Positions 30,015 through 32,726 of a DNA stretch of 64,000 bases are shown one piece after another. Location of the stretch: assembly GCA_023245865.1 (NCBI GenBank), contig JAHFJN010000001.1, positions 911,637 through 975,636 of the forward strand, in the 5' to 3' direction. The notes under the pieces are model-generated. The model was not told the origin of the DNA. It saw only the letters and a list, made by a program, of their open reading frames with translations, and did not search any database. Made by a program: the position numbers and the translations under genes. Positions within the stretch are counted from its first letter, which is position 1; each line of letters starts with the position of its first letter. This stretch comes from Candidatus Peribacteria bacterium (GTDB lineage: Bacteria; Patescibacteriota; Gracilibacteria; Peribacterales; Peribacteraceae).

Positions 30015-31043
30015 TCAGGATAACACCGAGAGGGACTCCGCGGCGAATGCATCGGTCATGCCTGCGACGTAATCTTTGATCGCCTCGATCACAGTGCCGC
30101 CCGTGCGCGCTTGGAGGTGCGCTATTTTTTCGTTTGGGTGCTTGAGGAGAAGATCGCAGAGAGATGCGACGATCCGATGGCCCTTCATCGCTTGCTCCCG
30201 CACGGTCGGGTGCATGTACATGTGGTCCCAGAGAAAATTTCGCAGTTCCTTGAGTGATGCCGCCATGGCAGGAGAGAAGGAGATCGGTTCGTTGTCTTTG
30301 GAATCGAGTGAGGAATGCTTGAGTAAATCTTCGACGAGCATGTGCTGCAGCGCGCCGCGAATGTAGGTACCGCGCTCGCGTGTGTGTTCGTAGGCTTGGC
30401 GTGCGAGAGGGACGGTGAGGAGATCTTCACGCGAAAAAAGATCAGCCGTGAGGCCGTCGTCGCAGTCGTGAGAATTGTAGGCGATGCTATCTGCGATGTT
30501 GACCAGCCGTGCCTCGAGTGTGTGGTGGAGCGGTGAGTGCTTGAGCAGCCCTTCGACAATTTCCAGATTCAAGTTCAGCCCCGGGTACTTCGATGAATGC
30601 TTCTCGAGCACGGTGACGATCCGGTGGCTCTGTTCGTTATGTTCAAAGTGACCGCCGTGACCGTGCATCCATGCGTTCAGTGCTTCCTCCCCCGCATGCC
30701 CGAAAGGCGGATGCCCGAGATCGTGCGCGAGCGCGATGCATTCGCTCAGGTCTTCATTGAGCCCCAGCGTGCGAGCGAGGTCGCGGCTGATCTGCGCGAC
30801 TTCCATCGTGTGGGTGAGGCGCGTGCGCAGGTGATCACCCTCACCCGCGGCGAACACTTGTGTTTTTCCTTGGAGGCGCAGGAATGAATAGCTGTGGATG
30901 ATCCGATCGCGATCGCGCTGGAACGGAAAACGTGTTTCATCGGCAGGCTCCTCGTATGTGCGTCCGCGGCGACCTTCGTGGGGGGTGGCGGAGGGGATTA
31001 AAAGTGCATTTGCCTCCTGAATTCTTTGTGAGAGGGGCTTCAT
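30015..31043 (-). CDS. dgt: dGTPase-like HD-domain triphosphohydrolase
   Basis: 342 residues, size of the short dGTPase-like family. N-terminal RDRDRIIHSYSFLRLQGKTQ, then HD-domain metal ligands RLTHTMEVAQISRDLART (His) and CIALAHDLGHPPFGHAGE (His-Asp), with IADSIAYNSHDCDDG later. It hydrolyses dNTPs to deoxynucleoside and triphosphate and helps balance dNTP pools. Extended -10 TGGTATACT ends 10 nt before the ATG, predicting a leader of only a few nt. Confidence 0.92.
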   Translation of the reverse strand: MKPLSQRIQEANALLIPSATPHEGRRGRTYEEPADETRFPFQRDRDRIIHSYSFLRLQGKTQVFAAGEGDHLRTRLTHTMEVAQISRDLARTLGLNEDLSECIALAHDLGHPPFGHAGEEALNAWMHGHGGHFEHNEQSHRIVTVLEKHSSKYPGLNLNLEIVEGLLKHSPLHHTLEARLVNIADSIAYNSHDCDDGLTADLFSREDLLTVPLARQAYEHTRERGTYIRGALQHMLVEDLLKHSSLDSKDNEPISFSPAMAASLKELRNFLWDHMYMHPTVREQAMKGHRIVASLCDLLLKHPNEKIAHLQARTGGTVIEAIKDYVAGMTDAFAAESLSVLS

Positions 31044-31052
31044 GGATCATGA

Positions 31053-31061
31053 AGTATACCA
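31053..31061 (-). promoter_or_regulatory. Extended -10 promoter (TGGTATACT) for dgt
   Basis: TGG-TATACT on the minus strand; predicted transcription start about 3-4 nt before the dgt ATG. It means the structured region further upstream is not part of this mRNA. Confidence 0.55.
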
Positions 31062-31074
31062 CAAAAAAACTTGT

Positions 31075-31230
31075 CCCAGCCGGCCGTTGAGTCAGAAACG
31101 CTTAGTCCCTGGGTAACCAGGTGGGTGACCGCATCCCCTCGCCACAGCGGGGAGAGATTAGGCCTCCCGATAAGCGTAGTTAGAGAAGAAACGTATCTGC
31201 TCTGACGCGCCTCCGAGACTGAGGGTCACT
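31075..31230 (+). ncRNA. Candidate structured RNA, class unknown
   Basis: Nested complementary segments: GTCAGA (31091-31096) with TCTGAC (31201-31206); ACGCTTA (31098-31104) with TAAGCGT (31171-31177); CCTGG/CCAGG (31108-31121) closing a GTAA loop; and CCCC/GGGG (31135-31152) with an inner GC pair and CACA loop. The GTAA loop is a GNRA tetraloop only on the plus strand, so that strand is favoured. The gap has no gene and dgt has its own promoter. I recognise no known RNA family. Confidence 0.45.
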
Positions 31231-31252
31231 CTCCTCCTGTTACTTTTGATTG

Positions 31253-31963
31253 TCACTGGCGCAGGGTCTTCAACTGGCACGTGGTGACATTCGTCTGACC
31301 TCTGCGCACTGCATCGCGGTCCCCTCCTCGATAACTCCAGTAGAGATCCGATTGACAGCAGGTGCAGTCGGGGTGGCGCTCAATGTTGGATTGCAGCACG
31401 CCACATGTCCGTAACTCTGCATCGGCAATTCCCTGCAAATCGACACATCGTCCATCAAAAAATTTCGGATCGATCAATGGTAATTCTTTTGTTGGATCCG
31501 TAAACTCCGCGCATTTCTGACAGAGCGATGGACCCGCCGCGACGAATGTGCTCGCTGCATCGATGCCGAATTCTTTGTTGAGCGTTACGAAAAACTGTGG
31601 AATGGCACCATTGATAAGTCCGCGCCACCCCGCATGCAGAAGCCCGACGACATAATTCTGCGGAGCGAAGATGACAAACGATTGGCAGTCGGCGGTGCGA
31701 AGTGTGAGAGTGAGACCCGGGACATCGGTGATAACTCCATCCGCGTCCTGCGTTCGATTGCTTGGTGCGCGCGCAATAATTGTCCGATTGCCGTGGACTT
31801 GATTCAACGAAACGACGGAATCATTTTCCATAAACGAATCTGCTTTTGCATAGAGCCGAACATTCAGTCGATCTTGGAATTTTTGAGTGTCATGCCGAGT
31901 AAAAAACGTGTCGACCTTTCGACCGGGCTCAAGATGACACGTTTTTTGTATCGAGGCATTCAT
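31253..31963 (-). CDS. pgeF: Purine nucleoside phosphorylase/laccase-domain protein (YfiH/PgeF)
   Basis: 236 residues from the ATG at 31963 (31993 is an alternative). Family motifs: SLNQVHGNRTIIA, LTLRTADCQSFVI, VGLLHAGWRGLINGAI and AAGPSLCQKC, with His/Cys/His metal ligands. The family (DUF152) includes multi-specific purine nucleoside phosphorylases and an enzyme correcting wrong muropeptides. The C-terminus has an extra C-x2-C-x-C cluster (PDCTCCQSDLYW). The start overlaps nnrD by 35 nt. Confidence 0.88.
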   Translation of the reverse strand: MNASIQKTCHLEPGRKVDTFFTRHDTQKFQDRLNVRLYAKADSFMENDSVVSLNQVHGNRTIIARAPSNRTQDADGVITDVPGLTLTLRTADCQSFVIFAPQNYVVGLLHAGWRGLINGAIPQFFVTLNKEFGIDAASTFVAAGPSLCQKCAEFTDPTKELPLIDPKFFDGRCVDLQGIADAELRTCGVLQSNIERHPDCTCCQSDLYWSYRGGDRDAVRRGQTNVTTCQLKTLRQ

Positions 31964-32726
31964 GGAGGACATACGGAATCTGCTCAATGACATCGCGCGT
32001 CGTGTAGGTGAATCCTTTTTCTTCGCAGAGTCGATCCCCGCAGGATTTGATGACGGTGGTGGCGAGTGCGCAAGCTTCTGCCGGACTCATTTTCTGCGCG
32101 ATAAGGCCTGCGATGAGCCCTGCAAGCGCGTCCCCTGTTCCGCCGACCGTCAGGCCCGCGTTGCCGCCTGCGATTTCTTGAACGGTACCATCGGGTGAGG
32201 CGATTGAATCCACCGGTCCCTTTACGTGAATTGTGACTCCGTGCCGTTTTGCAGCTTCTCCGATGTCTCCATGGGCGATCCCCATCCGTTCGAGTTCGCC
32301 TAAGTGCGGCGTGAGGACGGCAATTTTTCCTTGGAGGAGCGCGAGCGAGTCTGGTTGCAATGCGGTCGCATCGAGCACGAGCGGACAGGGTGCCCCGCGA
32401 ATGATCTGTTCGAGTGAGCTCAGGCACTCCGCACCCCGCGAAAGTCCCGGGCCGATCACACAGCTATCCATGATCGCGAGCATCTGGAGAATGTAGCCGG
32501 TGTCCTCGCGGCTCAGCTCCTCTCCCTTGAACTGATGCACTTGGAAATTGAGCGATGCGTTCTTCGCGACGTTCTCGTGCGAAACGGGGATGCAGAGAAA
32601 GACAAGATCGACACCCGAAGCTTCCGCCGCGAGTGCGGAAAAGATCGGCGCACCGTGAATGTGCCGCGAGCCTCCGATGATCGCGACCTTGCCGTTTTCA
32701 CCCTTGTGAGAGTCGGGATTTCTCAT
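31929..32726 (-). CDS. nnrD: ADP-dependent NAD(P)H-hydrate dehydratase
   Basis: 265 residues from the ATG at 32726 (MRNPDSHKGENGKVAIIGGS). Ribokinase-like fold with CVIGPGLSRGAECL near residue 100, LVLDATALQPDSL near 123, VLTPHLGELERMG and the catalytic GGTGDALAGLIAGL near 222. It repairs hydrated NAD(P)H using ADP or ATP. The epimerase NnrE partner domain is not fused. The open frame upstream to 33152 is an antisense-frame shadow of the glycosyltransferase, so it is not included. Confidence 0.9.
   Translation of the reverse strand: MRNPDSHKGENGKVAIIGGSRHIHGAPIFSALAAEASGVDLVFLCIPVSHENVAKNASLNFQVHQFKGEELSREDTGYILQMLAIMDSCVIGPGLSRGAECLSSLEQIIRGAPCPLVLDATALQPDSLALLQGKIAVLTPHLGELERMGIAHGDIGEAAKRHGVTIHVKGPVDSIASPDGTVQEIAGGNAGLTVGGTGDALAGLIAGLIAQKMSPAEACALATTVIKSCGDRLCEEKGFTYTTRDVIEQIPYVLHECLDTKNVSS

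Follow-up and report, generated by a model that had tools for sequence, protein, structure and literature searches.

A probable 6S RNA gene between pgeF and dgt in a Peribacteria-type CPR bacterium, missed at the standard Rfam threshold

In the 64,000-nucleotide stretch of DNA analysed here (the window), a gap of 209 bases (31044-31252) separates two genes of the minus strand, pgeF upstream (31253..31993) and dgt downstream (30015..31043). The former is recognized by PF02578 (E 3.8e-39), its TIGR00726 score of 108.6 bits being under the cut-off of 141.15, and the latter, a dGTPase gene, by TIGR01353 (257 bits, above its cut-off). The initial annotation placed a possible structured RNA in this gap, read from the plus strand and fitting no known family. 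What is this RNA, which strand encodes it, and does it belong to dgt or stand alone? With the gathering threshold applied across the whole window, Rfam reports two tRNAs only and nothing between pgeF and dgt, and ARAGORN finds neither tRNA nor tmRNA in the pgeF-dgt region. We have little doubt that the locus is the 6S RNA gene (ssrS), in single copy, of a Peribacteria-type CPR bacterium; it is encoded by the minus strand and has a run of T at its end. 6S RNA, a global regulator of transcription, is a regulatory RNA that captures RNA polymerase by resembling an open promoter. The RNA is therefore not a new class but a member of a known one; what makes it of interest is which bacteria carry the gene, and that the standard threshold misses it.

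A sensitive Rfam scan of positions 30950-31330 matches the 6S/SsrS family RF00013 at 31223..31068 on the minus strand, with 36.6 bits (E 5e-6) and over the whole model (positions 1-187). The gathering score of this family, 46.4, is a threshold set by curators and not a biological feature; the default scan is blank at the locus because the window copy scores under it, while the syntenic orthologs of two related genomes, G033 (54.4 bits) and G006 (52.8 bits), lie above. In 59 related genomes RF00013 finds a match in 24, at one place each, and this place is mostly the syntenic site to which an independent search by DNA similarity also points; among control genomes, E. coli, B. subtilis and others are matched as well. 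Our own model R1 reaches 141.6 bits on the minus strand (G000:C3:942705-942859), its only match in the genome up to an E-value of 10. Taken together, the two models delimit a gene at 31069..31223 (minus strand), with the 5' end of the RNA near 31223, or perhaps as much as some 10 nt further upstream, and the 3' end inside the T-run. Some weak plus-strand Rfam matches (ZEB2_AS1_2, a trypanosome snoRNA) were dismissed as chance.

The structure of the RNA emerges clearly only from the comparison of relatives and not from the folding energy of one sequence, which is unremarkable (z -1.88 for the plus strand, -0.66 for the minus strand, and -1.54 for the minus strand with the full RNA ends). Alignment A1 contains 28 family members from as many species, and its RNAalifold consensus has 42 pairs in five helices: a closing stem, P2, an internal stem, an apical hairpin and a small hairpin on the 3' side of the bubble. 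In this consensus 94% of the cells are paired, and 23 of the 42 pairs have changed on both sides. For covariation the consensus scores 0.426, compared with 0.237 in shuffles and 0.08-0.14 in slid versions, and a scan blind to the structure places the eight strongest of 13,203 column pairs all inside it. Covariation thus supports the 6S architecture of closing stem, central bubble, and internal plus apical stem. The covariance search and the comparison of relatives proposed in the initial annotation therefore yield a 6S match below the cut-off together with compensatory changes, and its view that a structured RNA lies between pgeF and dgt holds.

Following the minus strand from the 5' end, the closing stem is formed by 31197..31219 (consensus columns 5-28) and 31074..31095 (columns 138-161), and 10 of its 17 pairs show changes on both sides. 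Next comes P2, the ground-state helix flanking the central bubble, which joins 31190..31193 (columns 34-37) to 31099..31102 (columns 131-134) with 94.6% of cells paired. The 5' side of the bubble (31169..31189) is unpaired in the consensus from P2 to the internal stem. It overlaps a conserved pyrimidine tract, UUUCUUCUCU (31182..31191, A1 columns 36-45), which we propose, by analogy, as the template for the pRNA start. The internal stem pairs GGGAGGCC (31161..31168, columns 60-67), containing GGGAG, with the conserved GGUCACCC (31123..31130, columns 100-107), containing CACCCACC, and 99% of its cells are paired. GGGAG and CACCCACC, the 6S signature motifs of the internal stem, fall mostly in columns that are invariant or near-invariant in the 28 species. 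All ten pairs of the apical hairpin (31134..31155, columns 74-96) have changed on both sides, and the small hairpin CUGG..CCAGG on the 3' side of the bubble (31108..31120, columns 110-124) is paired in 95.5% of cells. Directly past the closing stem is a run of seven T (31063..31069), the likely point of intrinsic termination. In three relatives, G035, G002 and G013, the loop of the apical hairpin contains about 50 extra bases (L023:1363-1569, L026:1362-1566 and L031:1366-1569).

All the sequence words quoted in the initial annotation are located as claimed (GTCAGA at 31091-31096, TCTGAC at 31201-31206, ACGCTTA at 31098-31104, TAAGCGT at 31171-31177 and GGTAACC at 31112), and the two long-range pairings built from them fare differently. 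For GTCAGA/TCTGAC, the family does pair the same strands, as GCAG/CUGC plus CGU/ACG, but the exact register is unique to this genome. ACGCTTA/TAAGCGT is absent from the ground-state fold. On the minus strand it joins ACGCUUA in the distal 5' bubble (31171..31177) to UAAGCGU (31098..31104), which includes the 3' strand of P2, and it coevolves across relatives. Strands from the same species pair at -7.08 kcal/mol, against -5.27 kcal/mol when they are swapped between species, and none of 5000 permutations, which ignore the tree, does as well. A swap with the nearest relative, too, makes the helix weaker (-6.28 kcal/mol against -7.08), and no coevolution signal appears in 11 control segment pairs. 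The 3' strand of P2 thus keeps two mutually exclusive pairings. The same segments pair in the collapse helix defined for B. subtilis 6S-1 and A. aeolicus 6S RNA, which is believed to help free RNA polymerase once pRNA has been made (PMC8876501). ACGCTTA/TAAGCGT matches this published definition of the "central bubble collapse helix" (PMC8876501), and its strands coevolve as a B. subtilis-type rearrangement predicts. Coevolution supports the predicted pairing itself, and by analogy with B. subtilis 6S-1 it would act in polymerase release.

A model of the RNA at work can be proposed from the known 6S RNAs. It would form a rod made of the closing stem, the central bubble, and the internal and apical stem, mimic an open promoter, and occupy the RNA polymerase carrying the primary sigma factor as growth slows. 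When nucleotides return, the polymerase would use the 5' side of the bubble and the P2 strand as template for a short pRNA. Once P2 had opened, its 3' strand, UAAGCGU, would be free to pair with ACGCUUA in the distal part of the 5' bubble, and this pairing would collapse the bubble and release the polymerase. By the same analogy, the RNA is presumably expressed, bound by RNA polymerase and used for pRNA synthesis. B. subtilis 6S-1 is likewise a rod with a central bubble, it has the small 3'-bubble hairpin already in its free form, and the 3' strand of its P2 can pair with the distal 5' bubble (PMC8876501); it differs in length (about 200 nt, against about 155 nt here), sequence, promoter and neighbouring genes, which here are pgeF and dgt. 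E. coli 6S RNA (SsrS) shares the overall architecture, as the full-length RF00013 covariance match indicates, but the Peribacteria copy falls under the gathering threshold of that family and has the pgeF and dgt neighbours found in Peribacteria. In its small 3'-bubble hairpin and collapse helix it resembles the B. subtilis type more than gamma-proteobacteria, whose 3' bubble forms a long release hairpin. Consistent with a 6S RNA, sigma-70 region 2 genes are present: there are five matches, of which two strong ones lie in long open frames (G000:C3:220774-220986 and 720754-720960) and three are weaker, so that a genome of about 1.1 Mb would have several sigma factors.

The reading as a new plus-strand class, with two long-range pairings and a hairpin capped by a GNRA loop, draws on pairings that are indeed present in the sequence and on a plus strand that, in the window copy, folds slightly better than its complement. 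Among the 28 homologs, however, 23 fold better in the minus sense. When the alignment is read as minus strand, the non-Watson-Crick cells comprise 160 G-U against 19 A-C, and at locus L140 R1 scores about 145 bits in this sense against about 25 in the opposite one; the RNA is therefore read from the minus strand, where RF00013 also places it. The plus-strand GTAA loop occurs in only three of the 28 sequences, so there is no conserved GNRA element, and a new plus-strand class has next to no chance of being right. A minus-strand leader or riboswitch acting on dgt in cis would suit the position of the RNA, which is directly upstream of dgt and on the same strand here and in most relatives: at 19 of 31 family loci it is preceded by pgeF and followed by dgt, all in one orientation. 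Yet the RNA is inverted between the two genes at two of the 31 loci and inverted relative to dgt at a third, it is up to about 900 bases from dgt at others, and at 43 loci in other groups of the CPR neither pgeF nor dgt was detected near it. From these inversions, the variable spacing and the 43 loci we conclude that the RNA is an independent gene; its single match in this genome fits a stand-alone intergenic gene. The T-run and a TATACT element also separate it from dgt. The initial annotation was thus right that this is not the leader of dgt, a role that we consider highly improbable.

It is harder to tell from structure which form of the polymerase would be bound. In Actinobacteria, Ms1 is an RNA polymerase-binding RNA of related shape, yet it binds the sigma-free core enzyme (PMC9130861), and therefore structure alone is no proof of the target. 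A 6S-like RNA devoted to another form of the polymerase could find a place in a genome with five sigma-70 region 2 matches. Against this, the 6S match is full-length, the sensitive scan finds no Ms1-type match at the locus up to E 10, nor one to any other RNA polymerase-binding RNA family among those modelled in Rfam 15, which may or may not include Ms1, and the alternation between P2 and the collapse helix fits a release driven by pRNA. We regard such an RNA as very unlikely, and keep the primary-sigma polymerase as the presumed target.

How this 6S RNA gene is transcribed can be outlined from its surroundings. A consensus sigma-70 scan of 30900-31400 finds no promoter. At the 6S loci of relatives, a TAnnnT element ends about 8 bases ahead of a conserved GTCTC; the sequence aligned with it here is TAACAG (31237..31242, minus strand), shortly after the stop codon of pgeF, which is the best candidate for the -10 element of the 6S promoter and yet a weak one. 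On the other side, TATACT (31053..31058, minus strand) is a candidate -10 element for a separate promoter of dgt, beyond the 6S terminator. It lies just past the T-run and about 10 bases ahead of the dgt start codon, and with so short a distance dgt may be nearly leaderless. The sole terminator-like site returned by the scan, on the plus strand at 31221, was rejected as incompatible with the conserved RNA.

Outside this family, an exact-motif scan gives matches in named genomes of Peribacteria, Saccharibacteria and many Parcubacteria lineages. Most of these are borne out by R1, which matches them along much of the molecule and also recovers most of the out-of-family loci found by RF00013 alone (L151-L163), so the two models agree. 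The broader model R2 matches 129 of the 287 genomes sampled from the phylum, a figure to be read as an estimate because R2 was built partly from motif-chosen loci and run on genomes of this phylum only; its specificity rests on E-values, on the near-uniform single match per genome, and on the single match of its parent R1 in the present genome. In the same 287 genomes RF00013 matches 21 at the E-value used for R2, and 3 over the gathering cut-off. 6S RNA genes thus appear, from sequence comparison, to be present in a large part of the ultra-small CPR bacteria (Patescibacteria). The counts suggest that genome reduction in this large group has spared a general control of RNA polymerase, one that default annotation overlooks. 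More tentatively, and in our view less likely than not, 6S RNA could be a widespread and possibly ancestral CPR regulator missed by standard annotation, which in these host-dependent bacteria may couple the activity of the polymerase to the host's nucleotide supply. In the part of the open literature searched, which lacks the surveys Wehner 2014 and Barrick 2005, no paper treats 6S RNA in CPR bacteria.

Two of the genomes surveyed depart from the general picture. R2 finds one match per genome except in G109, the only sampled genome with two (C16:2395-2542 and C1:6215-6351), which possibly carries two 6S RNAs, as Bacillus does. At locus L082, a contig labelled Kiritimatiellales has pgeF, the 6S RNA and dgt in the Peribacteria arrangement, and has probably been mis-binned.
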